A DNA stretch of 64,000 bases from contig NZ_JACICC010000005.1 of NCBI RefSeq assembly GCF_014195635.1, positions 62,001 to 126,000 on the forward strand, given 5' to 3'. A model generated the notes under the pieces. The model worked only from the letters and a program-made list of their open reading frames with translations. It made no database searches and was not told the origin of the DNA. This stretch comes from Pseudochelatococcus contaminans (GTDB lineage Bacteria; Pseudomonadota; Alphaproteobacteria; Rhizobiales; Beijerinckiaceae). The stretch's first letter is position 1; every line of letters begins with the position of its first letter. Position numbers and translations under genes: made by a program. Shown here piece by piece: positions 26,355-57,451 of this stretch.

Positions 26355-28571
26355 ATGAACAAAGCCGGTGCCGGACTGTTATGGGCAAGCGTTGCGCTGA
26401 TCGTCGCCGCCCTTGCAATGCTGCCCATCAGCGTGCAGGCCCACCTCGTGTATTCCTGCGCGGTGATCATCGTCATGAGCGTGCTGAAGGCGTTCAGGGC
26501 ACAGGGGCCTTGGCGGCTGATTTTCATCGTGCTCGGCGTCAGTATCATCATGCGCTATGTCTACTGGCGCACGACAAGTACGCTTCCCCCCACGGGTGAG
26601 TTGCACAACTTCATTCCCGCCATTCTGCTTTATTCGGCAGAGATGTACGTCATCTTTACTGTCGGGCTGAACCTGTTCATCGTGTCGCTTCCCCCACGGC
26701 CGCGCGAGTGTCCGGTCATCGCCCGCGACGATCTGCCGACGGTCGATGTCTTCGTGCCAACCTATAATGAGGAACGCGCGCTGCTCGCAGCCACGCTCGC
26801 GGCAGCGCGGGGCATGGACTATCCCGCCGACAAGCTGACGATCTGGCTGCTGGATGATGGCAGCACCGATGAAAAGACCAATTCCGACGACGCCCTCACC
26901 TCGATAGCGGCCAGACGCCGGCGCGAGGATTTGAGCCGGTTGTGCGAAGATTTCGGCGTGCGTTACCTCACCCGCGCCGAGAACAAGCATGCCAAGGCCG
27001 GCAACCTCAACAACGGCCTGGCCCATTCCACCAGCGAACTCATCGCCGTCTTTGACGCAGACCATGCGCCGGCGCGAAATTTCCTGATGGAGACCGTAGG
27101 CTTTTTCCCTGGCGACAAGAAACTGTTTCTTGTGCAGACGCCGCACTTCTTCATCAATGCCGACCCGATCGAGAAGAACCTCGATACTTTCAGGAAGATG
27201 CCGTCCGAGAACGAGATGTTCAACAGCATCATCCTGCGCTCGCTCGACAAATGGAATGCGGCATACTTCTGCGGGTCGGCGGCTGTGCTGCGGCGTGAGG
27301 CCATCAACGACATCGGCGGTTTTTGCCACAGCAGCATCACGGAGGATTGCGAAACCTCGCTTGCCTTGCACGCGCGGGGCTGGTCCAGCGCTTATGTCGG
27401 CAAGCCGCTGATCGCAGGGCTTCAGCCTGAAACGTATACCAACTTCATCGGGCAGAGATCGCGCTGGGCGCAAGGCATGATCCAGATCATGCTGTTCAAT
27501 TTCCCGCTGTTCAAATCCGGCCTGACGCTGGCGCAGCGCTTTTGCTACATGTCGAGCGGCTTCCACTGGATGTTCCCCGTGACGAGAGCCATATTTCTCG
27601 TCGCGCCGCTGCTGTTTCTTCTGTTCGATATGAGAGTTTTCGTCGTCTCCGGCGGAGAATTCATCGCCTATGTCTTGAGCTATATGCTCATCAGCCTGCT
27701 GATGCAGAACTACCTTTATGGCAGTTGCCGGTGGCCGTGGGTTTCGGAGCTGTATGAATATGTGCAGATGATACACCTGCTTCCGGCGGTGTTTTCGGTG
27801 CTGGCCAACCCCCACAAGCCCTCGTTCCGCGTCACGGCCAAGAACGTGACACAGAGCGAGGACAGGATCGCCGATATCGGCAAGCCGTTCTTTATTCTGT
27901 TCGCCATTCTGGCCGCCACGCTGGCGGTGTCGATATGGCGCGTGTTCGACTCTCCGCACGTCGCCGGGCTGGTATTGACCGTCGGCGGATGGAACCTGCT
28001 GAACCTCATCATCGCCGGCTGCGCGCTGGGCGCGATCTCCGACCGTCGCAACTTGCGCGGCTTCCATCGCATTCCGATCACCCGCAGATGCGAGATCACC
28101 ACGGCCACCGGCGAGGTGCTGGCCGGCACCGTGGAGGATGTTTCGATCAGCGGCGCCGGGGTGCGGATCGTCAATGCCGACGGACAACCCTTGGCCGGCG
28201 GACAGCCCTTGGCCGGCGGACAACCCTTGCGACCAGGTGACGCTCTGTCGATCACGTTCAGGATGTGCAGCGGCGAGGCCGGCACTCCCCTGCCGATGAA
28301 AATCCGCAGCGTGAAAGCGGGGCCGGAGGCGGTTTACGTCGGCTGCGCATTTGTCGCCACGCAAGCGGCCCATTACGCGATGATCGCCGACCTTGCCTAC
28401 GCCAATGCCGATCAATGGGAGCAGTTCCAGAAGGAACGCCAGAGCAATATCGGCCTCATGCAAGGCACGATCTGGTTTCTGAGGATGGCTCTTTATCAAA
28501 CGCGGCGCGGCCTGTCCTTCCTGCTGGCGCGTTCCCGGCCGGAACGAAATCTCGCGGAGGCCGGGTCATGA
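26355..28571 (+). CDS. bcsA: Cellulose synthase catalytic subunit (UDP-forming), PilZ-regulated
   Basis: Processive family 2 glycosyltransferase in the inner membrane that polymerises UDP-glucose and extrudes cellulose. 738 residues. Catalytic motifs are intact: LDDGS (166-170), DAD (234-236), TED (329-331) and QRSRW (367-371). Transmembrane helices flank the GT domain. The C-terminal PilZ domain has RRNLR (564-568, the RxxxR motif) and DVSISG (595-600, DxSxxG), so c-di-GMP activation is expected. Directly after DxSxxG, residues 610-625 are a GQPLAG tandem repeat within the PilZ fold (annotated separately). It follows bcsN by 45 bases and overlaps bcsB by four. Confidence 0.96.
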   Translation: MNKAGAGLLWASVALIVAALAMLPISVQAHLVYSCAVIIVMSVLKAFRAQGPWRLIFIVLGVSIIMRYVYWRTTSTLPPTGELHNFIPAILLYSAEMYVIFTVGLNLFIVSLPPRPRECPVIARDDLPTVDVFVPTYNEERALLAATLAAARGMDYPADKLTIWLLDDGSTDEKTNSDDALTSIAARRRREDLSRLCEDFGVRYLTRAENKHAKAGNLNNGLAHSTSELIAVFDADHAPARNFLMETVGFFPGDKKLFLVQTPHFFINADPIEKNLDTFRKMPSENEMFNSIILRSLDKWNAAYFCGSAAVLRREAINDIGGFCHSSITEDCETSLALHARGWSSAYVGKPLIAGLQPETYTNFIGQRSRWAQGMIQIMLFNFPLFKSGLTLAQRFCYMSSGFHWMFPVTRAIFLVAPLLFLLFDMRVFVVSGGEFIAYVLSYMLISLLMQNYLYGSCRWPWVSELYEYVQMIHLLPAVFSVLANPHKPSFRVTAKNVTQSEDRIADIGKPFFILFAILAATLAVSIWRVFDSPHVAGLVLTVGGWNLLNLIIAGCALGAISDRRNLRGFHRIPITRRCEITTATGEVLAGTVEDVSISGAGVRIVNADGQPLAGGQPLAGGQPLRPGDALSITFRMCSGEAGTPLPMKIRSVKAGPEAVYVGCAFVATQAAHYAMIADLAYANADQWEQFQKERQSNIGLMQGTIWFLRMALYQTRRGLSFLLARSRPERNLAEAGS
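28182..28229. repeat. 18-bp tandem repeat in the PilZ domain of bcsA
   Basis: Two full copies and a 12-base partial third copy of GGACAACCCTTGGCCGGC (one base differs in copy 2) encode GQPLAG-GQPLAG-GQPL in a loop shortly after the DxSxxG motif. The frame is preserved. Confidence 0.9.
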
Positions 28572-30964
28572 AAAGGCTTGTCATCTCCCTGCTGACGCTG
28601 GGCATGGCGGTGTTTTCCGCCCTCACTCTGCACGCACAACTGGCTCCTGACGCTGGCGAACGGGCAGCATCACCCGCGCCGTTCAATATCGGCGGAAACG
28701 GAGCGCCCCCGGCCACCCGGCAGAAGGATGACACCGCTCCGTCTTCTCCGGACATGCGCGTCGGCAGTGGCGGTGAGGCCCGCTCCCGGACAAGCAGGTA
28801 TCTTCTGCCAATGGGCAACCTGCGCCTTGACGGCGAGCGCAACACCCGCGCGTGGAACATCTTTTTGACCGGCGACGAGGCGGAAACCGCTACCGGATTG
28901 CAACTGGCCTACATCAATGCCGTGTCGGTGATGCCGGAAGCGTCGCGTCTCAAGGTGGAGATCAACGGGCGATCCGTTCTCGACGTCGCCATCGACTCGT
29001 CCGACGCGCAGCGCATCGTGAGGGTTCCGGTCCCCGCTGGATTGCTGCGTGCGGGGGCGAACACAATCGACATCACGGCCGAGCAACGTCACCGCGTTGC
29101 CTGCACCGTGGAAAGCACATATGAGCTATGGACCGATATCGACGCCGCACGCACCTATCTGACATTCGCAAGCGGCGCCCGTCCCGGACGGCTGCAATCG
29201 TTGGACGATATTGCCGCCGTGGGCTTCGATGCCTTCGGCGAGACCACCCTGACCATCGTCGTGCCATCGCCGCGCGATTCCGTGCTGGGCGAAGAGATCT
29301 TGTATCTGTCACAGGCTCTGGCGGTGCGGGGGCGCTTCGCTCATCCGGTCGTATCCATCACAGGTAACCTGCCGGGCGGCTCCCGCCCAGGTGAACTGGT
29401 GGTGCTTCTGGCGCCGTCCCCACAACAATATGCCGCGACGGGCCCCGACGCGCCCGTTCTGCCGCACGCCACCTTCAGGAGTCTGCGGGACGGGAGCACC
29501 GCACTCGTCATCGCCGGCGAGACGCCGGAAGAGATCTACAGGCGGATCGCGCTCATCGTGCCGCAGAACATCCGCGATCCGAGCCCCTCGTCCACCGTCG
29601 ACACAGCTTCGCTTTACAGCCCCGAGACGACCTTCAGCAAAGGGGCAAGCAAGCTTGCGTTCGGCATGCTTGGGGTCGAGACGCAGGAATTTTCCGGCCG
29701 GCGTTTCACCACATCGATAACCGTGGCCCTGCCGATGGATTTCTACACGCAAGCCTATGGGGAGGCGCGGCTGCTTATCGACGCCGGTTTCGCTGTCGAT
29801 ATGCAGCCGGGGAGTTACTTCATCGTGTCGGTCAACGGGCGCACATCCTCCGTGCTGCCGCTCGATATGACAGCGGGCAAAATGGTGACGCAAATGCCGA
29901 TCCGCATTCCAATGCACCATTTCCGCCCCGGCGTGAATACCATCGAACTCAGCGGCGTGTTCAGAACCGCTCAGGATGCCGACTGCGCACCGGGAACCAC
30001 ACTGCAACGCGATCCGCGTTTTGCGCTGTTCGACAGCAGCAGCCTCGTCATTCCGGATTTCGGCCGCATGGGCACCACGCCCAATCTGGCGGCATTCAGC
30101 GCACGCGGCTTTCCTTACTGGCGCAAGGAAAGCACGCTTTACGTCTATCTTGCCGATCAGGAAAGCGCCACGGTCGCCGCCGCGGCAACGCTGTTGGCCA
30201 ACGTCTCCTTTCATGCGCAGCGCGTCATGCCGGTGGATATCGTGCCGCACATCAATGCCATCCAGCAGCAGAATGCCCTGCTGATCGGCGCGGCGGGAAA
30301 GCTGCCGCCGGTGGCACTGGCCCAGACAGGGCTGGCGTTTGATATGCCGTCGCTACAGGAAAGCGCCGATACTCTCCTGCCCGGCAGCGGAACGGTCGAC
30401 ACGGACGCGCCCTTGAGCCGGCCCGGCATCAACCCGGCCAACGCCGAAGATATCCGCGAGCGCTGGCAGAAGCGCACCGGGCCGGAGGGGGATGCGCCCG
30501 GAACCTTCGCAGCCTTTCAGCAATGGCTCCGTTCCACTTTCAACCTGACGGTCGACGCCGTTTTCCCGCGGCTGAACACCCCTCCTTACTCACCGCCCAA
30601 CGGAACGCTGATCGTTCTGGCGCAGGGCCACAGCATGCTGGGCAATTATACGTGGACGGTGATGACAGCAGGCTCAGCCGAGGCTCTGGAAGTCGGCATC
30701 AAAGAGCTGACGGAGCCGGTGATGTGGCCGCAAGTGGACGGGAAGATCACCGCGTTCCGCCAGTCGACCTACACAGTCGACGTGGTGATGCCCGCATGGG
30801 TGGATTTCATCCCCATGCATCCGCCGGAGTTGTTCAACCTGCGCATGGTGGCGGCCAACTGGCTCTCCTCCAACCTGTCCAGCTACGCGCTTGTCATGCT
30901 GCTTGCCTGTGCGCTGCTGGGCCTCGCCAGCTATCTGGTTCTGATCCAGGTGGGGAGGCGATAA
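28568..30964 (+). CDS. bcsB: Cellulose synthase periplasmic subunit BcsB
   Basis: 798 residues, periplasmic partner that guides the glucan and stabilises BcsA. It has a signal peptide (MKRLVISLLTLGMAVFSALT...HAQ), two carbohydrate-binding-like/flavodoxin-like repeats (first near RYLLPMGNLRLDGERNTRAW, second from ~395) and a C-terminal membrane anchor (about 770-795, SSYALVMLLACALLGLASYL). GGAGG lies seven bases before the ATG, which overlaps the bcsA stop. The stop shares a base with the bcsZ start, so bcsA-bcsB-bcsZ are translationally coupled. The first ~60 mature residues are Pro/Gly/Ala-rich. Confidence 0.92.
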   Translation: MKRLVISLLTLGMAVFSALTLHAQLAPDAGERAASPAPFNIGGNGAPPATRQKDDTAPSSPDMRVGSGGEARSRTSRYLLPMGNLRLDGERNTRAWNIFLTGDEAETATGLQLAYINAVSVMPEASRLKVEINGRSVLDVAIDSSDAQRIVRVPVPAGLLRAGANTIDITAEQRHRVACTVESTYELWTDIDAARTYLTFASGARPGRLQSLDDIAAVGFDAFGETTLTIVVPSPRDSVLGEEILYLSQALAVRGRFAHPVVSITGNLPGGSRPGELVVLLAPSPQQYAATGPDAPVLPHATFRSLRDGSTALVIAGETPEEIYRRIALIVPQNIRDPSPSSTVDTASLYSPETTFSKGASKLAFGMLGVETQEFSGRRFTTSITVALPMDFYTQAYGEARLLIDAGFAVDMQPGSYFIVSVNGRTSSVLPLDMTAGKMVTQMPIRIPMHHFRPGVNTIELSGVFRTAQDADCAPGTTLQRDPRFALFDSSSLVIPDFGRMGTTPNLAAFSARGFPYWRKESTLYVYLADQESATVAAAATLLANVSFHAQRVMPVDIVPHINAIQQQNALLIGAAGKLPPVALAQTGLAFDMPSLQESADTLLPGSGTVDTDAPLSRPGINPANAEDIRERWQKRTGPEGDAPGTFAAFQQWLRSTFNLTVDAVFPRLNTPPYSPPNGTLIVLAQGHSMLGNYTWTVMTAGSAEALEVGIKELTEPVMWPQVDGKITAFRQSTYTVDVVMPAWVDFIPMHPPELFNLRMVAANWLSSNLSSYALVMLLACALLGLASYLVLIQVGRR

Positions 30965-32202
30965 TGCATCGTCATCGATCTCGTCTGCGCTACGGGCTGA
31001 AGCGTTTTCAAGCAAAGCGGATACCGCTTTTCTTGGAGAAAACGCGTAAAACCAACAAGATAGAGCATTTCCGCGTTTCAACGAAATGCCGAAATGCTCT
31101 GGTCATGGCTCTCTCTGCCTTTCTGGGTGCCGGTCCGATGTCTGGCGCGTTGATGTCTGGCGCGTTGATGGCCGCCCCGCCCGGCGCCACATCGCAACCT
31201 GCGGAATCCACGGTCGTCGCAGGGCTGATCCGCGCCGACGAATGGGCGCAGTATCGCGACCGCTTCATCATTTCGGGCCGGGTCGTCGACAATGCCAACG
31301 GCGATATCACCCACAGCGAGAGCCAGGGCTACGGCATGATGCTCGCGGTGATGGCCGATGATTCAGCCACCTTCTCCGCGCTCTGGGGCTTCGTGCGCTC
31401 GCAGATGATGGTGCGTGACGACGGGCTGACAGCATGGCGCTGGCACCCCGCCACGCGGCCGCATGTCACAGATATCAACAACGCCACGGACGGCGACATC
31501 CTCATTGCCGGCGCGCTCCTTCTCGGAGCAAATGCCTGGGAAAAACCCGAACTGGCAGCGGCGGCACGCACCATCATGAATGCCGTGGCGGGCAATACCG
31601 TCATCCGTGCTGGCGGGCAAACCCTGCTGCTTCCCGGGGTCGAGGGGTTTCATCGCGGCGCGCGCCCGGATGCGCCCGTGATCAACCCATCCTATTGGGT
31701 TTTCGAGGCACTCGCCCTGTTCGCAAAGCATCGACCGCAACAGCCGGTCTGGCAAAAGTTGACGGAAAGCGGCCTGATGCTGATCGACCATACCAGCTTC
31801 GGCCCTGCCGGCGCCCCGTCCGAATGGGTGTCGGTGCGCGATGCCGCACGGCCGAGGCCCGCAGCGGGTTTCAACGCCGAATATGGCTATAATGCATTGC
31901 GCATTCCGCTCTACCTGATGCGGGCGGGTATCGACGACAGGCCCCGCCTTGCCCGCTTCAGAAAGCTCTGGAGCAGGAACGGACAACACGCGCCCGCCAT
32001 CATCGATATTCATAGCGGCCGCTCCAGATACGACCTCGACGACAGCGGCTATGCAATGATCGTCGCAAGCCTCGACTGCGCCCTCGACGGCACGCCCATT
32101 CCGGAAACGCTGCGACGCTTCAGCCCGGCGCTCTACTATCCTTCGACGTTGCATCTGCTCGGCCTGTCGCTCGTCCGGCAAAGGTATCCTCAATGTCTCT
32201 GA
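30964..32202 (+). CDS. bcsZ: Periplasmic endoglucanase BcsZ (GH8) with a repeat-encoded N-terminal insertion
   Basis: 412 residues. Family 8 glycosyl hydrolase that trims cellulose during export. Core motifs are present: YRDRFIISGRVVDNANGD, THSESQGYGMMLAV (catalytic Glu), and NAEYGYNALRIPLYL with YDLDDSGYAM near the end. The ATG at 30964 follows GGGAGG by five bases and overlaps the bcsB stop. Unusually, codons 13-46 are encoded by a palindromic repeat element (annotated separately). Remove it, and MHRHRSRLRYGL joins VMALSAFLGAGPM..., a normal basic-then-hydrophobic signal peptide. An ATG at 31105 could start a shorter form with a cleavable signal, but it lacks a Shine-Dalgarno. A 15-bp duplication follows. 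Confidence 0.88.
   Translation: MHRHRSRLRYGLKRFQAKRIPLFLEKTRKTNKIEHFRVSTKCRNALVMALSAFLGAGPMSGALMSGALMAAPPGATSQPAESTVVAGLIRADEWAQYRDRFIISGRVVDNANGDITHSESQGYGMMLAVMADDSATFSALWGFVRSQMMVRDDGLTAWRWHPATRPHVTDINNATDGDILIAGALLLGANAWEKPELAAAARTIMNAVAGNTVIRAGGQTLLLPGVEGFHRGARPDAPVINPSYWVFEALALFAKHRPQQPVWQKLTESGLMLIDHTSFGPAGAPSEWVSVRDAARPRPAAGFNAEYGYNALRIPLYLMRAGIDDRPRLARFRKLWSRNGQHAPAIIDIHSGRSRYDLDDSGYAMIVASLDCALDGTPIPETLRRFSPALYYPSTLHLLGLSLVRQRYPQCL
31000..31101 (+). repeat. Palindromic repeat element (Bru-RS-like), copy 1, inserted in frame in bcsZ
   Basis: About 102 bp (34 codons) made of two hairpins: GCGTTTTC ... AAAGCGG / CCGCTTT ... GAAAACGC (31002-31045), and AGAGCATTT ... AAATGCTCT (31072-31100). 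Its first 48 bases match the reverse complement of 56035-56082 at 43 of 48 positions. Size and hairpin layout resemble the ~105-bp Bru-RS elements of Brucella, from memory and not by search. Confidence 0.75.
31141..31170. repeat. 15-bp tandem duplication in bcsZ
   Basis: Two perfect copies of TCTGGCGCGTTGATG encode SGALM-SGALM in the presumed signal-peptide region. Confidence 0.9.
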
Positions 32203-55774: not shown

Positions 55775-55910
55775 GAGACATCCTTCCTGCATCTGTTGCA
55801 ATTCCCGCATCTGAGGCTTTGCCGTGCGGGGTGCGAGTCGCGCTTATCATGGCGCAAAAAGCCGTCATCGTCATCATTGCGCAGCGCCTGAACGGAACTG
55901 GCGCACGCGC

Positions 55911-55976: not shown

Positions 55977-55981
55977 ACTAT

Positions 55982-56082
55982 GCAGCATTTCAGCGTTTAA
56001 TGGCAATTTGGAGACGCCAACCTATTTCGGTGTAACGCGTTTTCTTCACGCAAAGCGGTATCCACTCTGCTTGAAAACGCTT
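55982..56082 (-). repeat. Palindromic repeat element, copy 2 (degenerate)
   Basis: The half at 56035-56082 (hairpin GCGTTTTC ... GAAAACGC) matches copy 1 at 31000-31047 in reverse orientation at 43 of 48 bases. The other half shows a decayed AGCATTTC...GC hairpin. It lies intergenic between the divergent SIMPL and DUF2254 genes. Confidence 0.7.
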
Positions 56083-56140: not shown

Positions 56141-57451
56141 ATGTCGCGCTGGCAATGGATATTGTCGCGTATCACGCGGCGCTTGTGGGTGCGGGCATCG
56201 CTGATTGGCGCGCTCGGAATCGTCGCCGCCGTGCTGTCGGCGGTTGTCGAGCCTTATATACCGTGGCAGCTTCCGGGCACGATCGGCGTCCATGCCGTTG
56301 ACAGCATTCTGACGATCATCGCATCGAGCATGCTTGCGGTCACCACCTTCTCTCTCAGCGTTGTCACGTCGGCCTATGGCGCGGCGGCGAGCCAGGTGAC
56401 GCCGCGCGCCACGCGGCTGTTGATCGAGGACCGGGTCACGCAGAACGTCCTCTCCACCTTCATTGGCTCATTCCTGTTCGCCATCGTCGGCATCGTGGTG
56501 CTGAAGACGGGCGCTTACGATGCGCGCGGGCGTGTGATTCTCTTCATCGTCACCATCGCCGTCATCGCGCTCATCGTGGTATCGTTGCTGCGCTGGATCG
56601 ATCACCTGACGCGGCTTGGCCTCGTGCCGGAAACCACCAGCCGGGTGGAAGATGCAACACGGCGCGCCATCCGCAGTCGCCTCAGCCAGCCGTATCAGGG
56701 CGGCAAGCGGCTGGAAGGACTTCCGCCTTCCGCCGTTTCCGTTCTGGCGGGCGACGTGGGATATGTGCAGCATATCGATATGGCCGCATTGGCGGCACAA
56801 TGCGAGGATGTCGACGCCGACATCTACGTGACCGCCCTGCCGGGTGCATTCCTTTATCCGGACACGCCGATTGCCTGGATCGGCTCATGTGCCAGCGCGG
56901 AAACCGATCAAAACGACGAGGACTTGCACGAAGAAGTGCGCAGTGCCTTCAGCATCGGGGCCGAGCGCAGTTTCGATCAGGATCCCCGTTTCGGGCTCGC
57001 CGTCATGAGCGAAATCGCCTCGCGGGCGCTGTCCCCGGCCACCAACGATCCCGGAACAGCCATTGACGTCATTGGCCGCCTGACGCGTCTTTTGACATTA
57101 TGGGCCAAAGGCCCGCCCACCATTCCAGAGGACAAGATAGCCTATCCGCGCGTCTACGTGCAGCCGCTGCGGTCGCAGGACATGTTCGAGGACGCCTTCA
57201 TGCTGCTGGCACGGGACGGTGCGGAACACGTCGAGGTGCAGATACGGCTGCAAAAGTCGCTGGGTGCGCTTGCACGGACGGGCGACAGCGACTTCCGCGA
57301 GGCCGCTCTCCAGCAGGCGGGACTGGCTTTGAGCCGCGCCGAAGCCGGTTTGTCCCTCGACTTTGACAAGCAGCGCGTCCGCGAAGCCGCGCATCGGGGC
57401 GGCGTGCTGGAAGGGCTGAACCACGCAAACGCCGCCGCCAACGGACAATAA
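56141..57451 (+). CDS. DUF2254 membrane protein
   Basis: 436 residues. Four N-terminal transmembrane segments (about 15-155, e.g. LIGALGIVAAVLSAVV and LSTFIGSFLFAIVGIVVLKTG) are followed by a soluble domain (about 165-436). Characteristic DUF2254 segments are SILTIIASSMLAVTTFSLSV, GAAASQVTPRATR, and SEIASRALSPATNDPGTAID (the last strongly conserved). ORF starts at MSRWQWILSRITRR with no clear Shine-Dalgarno. Role unknown. Its upstream region holds the repeat element copy, which could influence expression. Confidence 0.88.
   Translation: MSRWQWILSRITRRLWVRASLIGALGIVAAVLSAVVEPYIPWQLPGTIGVHAVDSILTIIASSMLAVTTFSLSVVTSAYGAAASQVTPRATRLLIEDRVTQNVLSTFIGSFLFAIVGIVVLKTGAYDARGRVILFIVTIAVIALIVVSLLRWIDHLTRLGLVPETTSRVEDATRRAIRSRLSQPYQGGKRLEGLPPSAVSVLAGDVGYVQHIDMAALAAQCEDVDADIYVTALPGAFLYPDTPIAWIGSCASAETDQNDEDLHEEVRSAFSIGAERSFDQDPRFGLAVMSEIASRALSPATNDPGTAIDVIGRLTRLLTLWAKGPPTIPEDKIAYPRVYVQPLRSQDMFEDAFMLLARDGAEHVEVQIRLQKSLGALARTGDSDFREAALQQAGLALSRAEAGLSLDFDKQRVREAAHRGGVLEGLNHANAAANGQ

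Follow-up and report, generated by a model that had tools for sequence, protein, structure and literature searches.

The cellulose operon in this window (the whole 64,000-nt stretch of DNA that was analysed) carries a palindromic repeat within the coding sequence for the signal peptide of BcsZ, which raises the questions of how the repeat came to lie there and of what it does to a conserved secreted enzyme. The original prediction had described it as a two-hairpin repeat inserted in frame in the signal-peptide sequence. The features on which our analysis turns are the following.

30952..30958, + strand: GGGGAGG, Shine-Dalgarno-like stretch before the native start (putative role)
30964..32202, + strand: bcsZ, GH8 endoglucanase of the cellulose operon, 412 aa
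30964..30999, + strand: original signal-peptide n-region, MHRHRSRLRYGL
30998..30999, + strand: TG flanking the element on the left, where 31 of 35 end-to-end copies have TA
31000..31101, + strand: MITE-like two-hairpin repeat, a net insertion of 102 bp equal to bcsZ codons 13-46, residues KRFQAKRIPLFLEKTRKTNKIEHFRVSTKCRNAL
31002..31045, + strand: left hairpin of the element
31062..31100, + strand: right hairpin of the element, in which some pairs covary between copies
31100-31101, + strand: right flanking dinucleotide of the bcsZ copy, TG
31102..31170, + strand: original hydrophobic core and following residues, VMALSAFLGAGPMSGALMSGALM
31105..31107, + strand: in-frame ATG, candidate alternative start, judged unlikely
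55981..56082, - strand: second copy, left half, matching element positions 1-54 at 87%

The element starts 36 nt past the bcsZ start and remains in frame throughout its 34 codons, at exactly the coordinates predicted. Both predicted hairpins were located, the left with arms at 31009-31020/31024-31035 and outer arms at 31002-31009/31038-31045, the right with arms at 31062-31079/31083-31100; folded alone, they reach -20.4 (left) and -21.7 (right) kcal/mol, with z-scores of -4.3 and -5.7 against shuffled sequences. An Rfam search of the window returned no match at the gathering score. The enzyme downstream is intact in its domain: BcsZ matches PF01270 (GH8) with an E value of 1.3e-45 and aligns to solved GH8 enzymes, the bcsZ ATG overlaps the bcsB stop codon by one base, and a BcsB domain and a cellulose-synthase-type glycosyltransferase with PilZ lie upstream. 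Separately, three in-frame 18-bp units (GQPLAG repeats) occur in bcsA at 28176-28229, inside the PilZ-matched stretch. At the motif EYGYNALRIPLY, Asn is found in BcsZ, in the paralogue encoded by this genome and in 26 of the 29 relatives L012-L040, while the three solved GH8 enzymes aligned have Asp (YDA/FDA). The Asp at this position is the GH8 catalytic base, so this BcsZ clade may be inactive or rely on a different base.

The repeat is common in this genome. A 33-nt core pattern (≤3 mismatches) was found at 41 places, compared with 0 for the reversed control, and a search with the bcsZ copy and short flanks returned at least 70 match pieces at E ≤10 among the best 40 of 75 candidate places, a recurrence far beyond chance. 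The predicted 48-base copy at 56035-56082 was recovered with 43/48 identities as the reverse complement, the direct strand giving 26/48; the left-half copy to which it belongs is probably intergenic, flanked by a frame that ends at 55810 and another that starts at 56141, although one 106-codon TTG frame overlaps it. At L046 1420-1600 (G000:C4:312626-312813), a full copy adjoins a partial copy in the opposite orientation. Two congeners both carry the repeat (at least 34 matches in one and at least 40 in the other), as do 62 of the 199 family genomes searched, representing 18 of 43 genera. One family member, G092, gave 256 first-look candidate places (4 scored) versus at most 143 in any other member listed. 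Similar sequences were found on 15 plasmid records from Bradyrhizobium, Agrobacterium, Rhizobium, Shinella, and Xanthobacter, and a pattern scan of genome contigs matched only contigs of one Chelatococcus MAG. The Brucellaceae setting originally supposed was not supported, the organism being very probably Chelatococcus-like; Chelatococcus belongs to the Chelatococcaceae (Hyphomicrobiales).

The 35 end-to-end copies in the stretches fetched showed a net length of 102 bp (AAG to terminal TA) in 31, with 97, 99, 99, and 103 bp in the others. TA is present at both ends in 25 of the 35, while the bcsZ copy has TG/TG in place of TA/TA, as does one other copy. A pyrimidine precedes the left TA in 28/31 copies and a purine follows the right TA in 23/26, suggesting a YTAR target with duplication of the TA. 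These statistics agree with the behaviour described for IS711 in PMC2266754, where a YTAR site has its TA duplicated. Compared as candidate inverted repeats, the ends TAAAGCGTTT and TAGAGCATTT match imperfectly: across 31 copies, 7.5 of 12 positions agree on average. The repeat is small, multi-copy, and stem-loop forming with TA termini, properties that PMC2229807 tabulates for MITEs together with terminal inverted repeats and target-site duplication. GANTC occurs in none of the 31 aligned copies. A MITE would be expected to be mobilised by a resident IS with the same ends. Our search for a parent transposase covered the DUF4096 family, and the TARAGCRTTT end motif occurred in 0 of its 7 loci in this genome. 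The clearest IS found is a DUF4096-type element (L153 1350-2197; G000:C11) whose inverted ends are 23 nt long and which sits at a CTAG site, flanked by TA on either side; it shares the repeat's TA target rule and differs in its ends.

To ask whether the element was added to a pre-existing gene, we compared bcsZ with its relatives. Matches to bcsZ were found in 66 of the 199 family genomes, this one included, and the loci of 29 others were compared, with the upstream frame taken as bcsB by position and length. The bcsZ start lies on the upstream frame's stop (offset 0 or -3) in 25/29 relatives, in the paralogue, and in the window; the exceptions are L014 (+6 or more), L023 (+2), L032 (no upstream frame found), and L040 (-9). 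The 34 element residues were present in none of the N-termini inspected, whether of relatives or of the paralogue. Since the start geometry is so widely shared and the additional residues are absent from these N-termini, comparison of the sequences indicates that the element in bcsZ is an insertion, as had been proposed. The two congeners gave no bcsZ match, and hence no DNA-level empty site of this gene; where the congeners were aligned with two intergenic loci, L060 and L068, the sequences were too diverged to place the junction.

Hydropathy, on which all our statements about signal peptides rest, places the best 15-residue hydrophobic stretch of BcsZ after 44 residues with a net charge of +13 before it. 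When the element residues are left out, the stretch begins after 10 residues with a net charge of +4, an ordinary signal peptide as the original prediction held. Among the 25 relatives sharing the start, 24 have 3-14 residues ahead of the hydrophobic stretch, and one, L031 (G107:C150, start 1351), has 34; the basic n-region of L031 has a net charge of +8 and does not contain the repeat. Because this long n-region is free of the repeat, it supports tolerance: long basic n-regions are rare at bcsZ yet not unique to the window, which favours an insertion that could be accommodated. The paralogous locus (L041; G000:C3:438500-443600) is a second bcsB-bcsZ pair whose BcsZ is 66% identical and has an ordinary signal peptide, the hydrophobic stretch following 16 residues and the upstream neighbour being BcsB-like by eye. 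A second length change lies beside the insertion, a perfect 15-bp tandem duplication at 31137-31170, in frame, that gives MSGALMSGALM directly past the core.

We favour, with a probability of roughly 0.8, a chance and tolerated insertion of a non-autonomous MITE-like repeat, with translation through the repeat, core-driven export, and an unchanged mature enzyme. A repeat common between genes here would have inserted at a YTAR-type site in the part of bcsZ encoding the signal peptide. Duplication of the TA would bring the gain to 102 bp, or 34 codons, and the frame would have survived because the target was a leucine codon of YTA type and the repeat has no stop in that phase. Initiation would still occur at the ATG at 30964 by coupling to the bcsB stop, and translation would continue across the repeat, so that pre-BcsZ would carry a basic n-region of ~44-46 residues rather than the ~10-12 before, followed by the original hydrophobic core. 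This unchanged core should still direct the protein into the Sec pathway, and the entire extension should be cleaved off by signal peptidase. The insertion would thus be an accident that is tolerated, affecting at most how strongly BcsZ is expressed or how fast it is exported. Export of BcsZ with the extended leader is likely.

A serious though unlikely rival is that the insertion crippled BcsZ export, the second bcs operon supplies the secreted enzyme, and this copy is heading toward a pseudogene. The paralogue with its ordinary signal peptide would provide the required backup, the extension carries 11 Lys/Arg and 2 Asp/Glu and is encoded by two strong hairpins, and the hydrophobic core scores 1.75 over 15 residues against 2.75 in the paralogue. 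However, the core itself was not altered by the insertion, the frame is full with the GH8, BcsA, and BcsB domains intact, and L031 has an n-region of 34 residues at net +8.

We consider it quite unlikely that the hairpins regulate the operon by acting early in bcsZ as a ribosome brake or a target of RNase, which would hold BcsZ and the TPR protein encoded downstream at a lower level than BcsA and BcsB. Two strong hairpins are present, and RNase III action on the hairpins of a Neisseria MITE has been proposed, as related in the available text of PMC2229807. Support for the fold comes from covariation: with the bcsZ-copy structure applied to 31 aligned copies (30 distinct), 5 of 35 pairs are changed on both sides, compared with a mean of 2.2 in shuffles; in this control, which is uncorrected for relatedness, 0/500 shuffles reached the observed 5, and slid structures reach at most 2. 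This covariation is nevertheless family-wide, can reflect selection on transposition, and is not tied to bcsZ; moreover, the tested pair 12-34 is unpaired in 26/30 copies, and no terminator-like or promoter-like site was found in 30800-31400.

A more ambitious version of the tolerated insertion grants the repeat a built-in coding tolerance, such that landing on a YTA leucine codon yields 34 stop-free residues either way and one third of in-gene landings are frame-silent; bcsZ would thereby have gained a working, unusually long basic signal peptide that alters the timing or amount of BcsZ export relative to the paralogous operon. Of the six phase and orientation placements of the consensus, four contain stops and two are stop-free, one per orientation, both with YTA in phase, and 29/31 copies of 102 nt are open in the + frame. 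As read from the consensus, the TA-target rule and this particular repeat sequence can together make insertions frame-safe in both orientations. The + frame contains a stop in 25/27 (G001) and 26/36 (G002) of the congener copies listed; the open frame is therefore not conserved in the genus, whereas many of the copies listed for G092, a member of another and more distant genus, are open in it. The bcsZ copy differs from the consensus at 8 positions in 8 codons, with 2 synonymous and 6 nonsynonymous changes, and in 67% of trials the frame stays open under 8 random substitutions; the extra residues therefore bear no sign of selection or of conservation. We regard this larger proposal, taken as a whole, as a long shot.

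Initiation at the ATG at 31105 behind the element, which would make the repeat a leader rather than protein and had been offered in the original prediction, is very unlikely. An in-frame ATG does lie 3 nt behind the element. However, the 18 nt before it (tgccgaaatgctctggtc) contain no Shine-Dalgarno-like stretch, whereas ggtggggaggcgata precedes 30964; the right hairpin ends just upstream of it; its product would have no positive residues before the best hydrophobic stretch; and the native start geometry is the one common to the 25/29 relatives.

We also asked whether bcsZ is one of many genes hosting the repeat, as it would be in a system resembling the Rickettsia palindromic elements (RPE), in which the repeat is selected as protein-coding and spreads through genes. 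The places fetched numbered 84, of which 43 came from elsewhere and 41 from this genome; one of the latter is a partial copy that adjoins another. A codon-usage scan took 79 of the 84, since 5 had too short a flank (2 in this genome, 3 in others), and the 84 include 4 duplicates of copies already fetched; the half copy at 56035-56082 and the core match at C2:42213 lay outside the scan. Among the 39 own-genome places scanned, bcsZ was the only in-gene copy recognised, with a native start and a mature domain around it, and none convincing was found by the scan of flanks among 36 distinct places from other genomes, many of which had been picked for long open frames, a choice favouring in-gene finds. 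The other copies were called intergenic from codon-usage scores together with the positions of starts, as assessed visually. Long open frames run through L047, L049, L060, L065, L068, L105, L122, L124, L130, L136, and L140; by eye, these are antisense shadow frames or start behind the element. Two plasmid matches annotated under genes, a Xanthobacter helicase and a Rhizobium regulator, overlap the gene by just 3 bases at its end. The stop-free consensus, the open frame in the 102-nt copies, and the open G092 copies are what an RPE-like system would predict, but the lack of a recognised second in-gene copy, the stops in most listed congener copies, and the mostly nonsynonymous changes of the bcsZ copy make it highly improbable, and this part of the original prediction was not borne out.

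That two loci were wrongly joined at the repeat during assembly is hardly credible: the genome is a draft of 46 contigs with tens of repeat copies, but the sequences on either side come from a single operon, with the bcsB stop and the bcsZ start before the repeat and the GH8 domain behind it, and the bcsZ copy is distinct, standing 7 substitutions from its nearest relative and having two bases absent from the 30 other aligned copies, one of which is present in one further copy of the 35-copy set.

Among known repeats, the RIME of rhizobia (Rhizobium-specific intergenic mosaic elements, those of Osteras 1995) have a two-palindrome layout. By description, the repeat resembles RIME as a repeated intergenic element of rhizobia, annotated in Sinorhizobium (PMC2573895). 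The Bru-RS1 and Bru-RS2 elements of Brucella (Halling and Bricker 1994) are likewise palindromic, repeated, alphaproteobacterial, and ~103-106 bp long, and IS711 is reported to favour them as targets, according to the accessible parts of PMC10800456 and PMC2266754; they come from a different bacterial family, and the likeness is one of description. The CIR of Caulobacter and Brucella (Chen and Shapiro 2003, as summarised in the available portion of PMC2229807) are also similar in size and plan, at ~110 bp with two independent stem-loops and a linker. CIR carry GANTC and stops in all six frames in that same account, whereas the repeat has no GANTC in 31 copies and leaves two of six frames open, which rules out identity with CIR. 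RPE provide the precedent for a palindromic repeat of ~100-150 bp read in frame inside a gene, as seen here (PMC2229807, PMC10969869), and share with the repeat an open frame through the element (29/31 copies). Nearly half of the first reported RPEs lie in ORFs, according to PMC10969869; because a single in-gene copy was recognised here, an RPE-like system is not supported.

In the open literature we found no description of a repeat inside bcsZ, nor of this repeat in Chelatococcus. Protein-coding MITEs are already known, one of them in a signal peptide, as described in the portion of PMC2759123 available; the bcsZ insertion is hence a new example of a phenomenon known in other bacteria and by itself shows no new system. 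In the case of RU-2/YPAL in Yersinia YPO1552 (Delihas 2007, PMC2759123, and PMC2229807), the repeat helps to create the signal of a small putative protein, whereas in bcsZ it interrupts a signal that a conserved enzyme already had, and the hydrophobic core stays intact. Compared with that precedent, bcsZ offers a clean natural case in which a mobile repeat lengthens the signal peptide of a conserved secreted enzyme with the gene unbroken, and for which the unaltered paralogue serves as a control. It opens to experiment the simple question of how far a basic n-region can be lengthened before the Sec pathway no longer accepts it.
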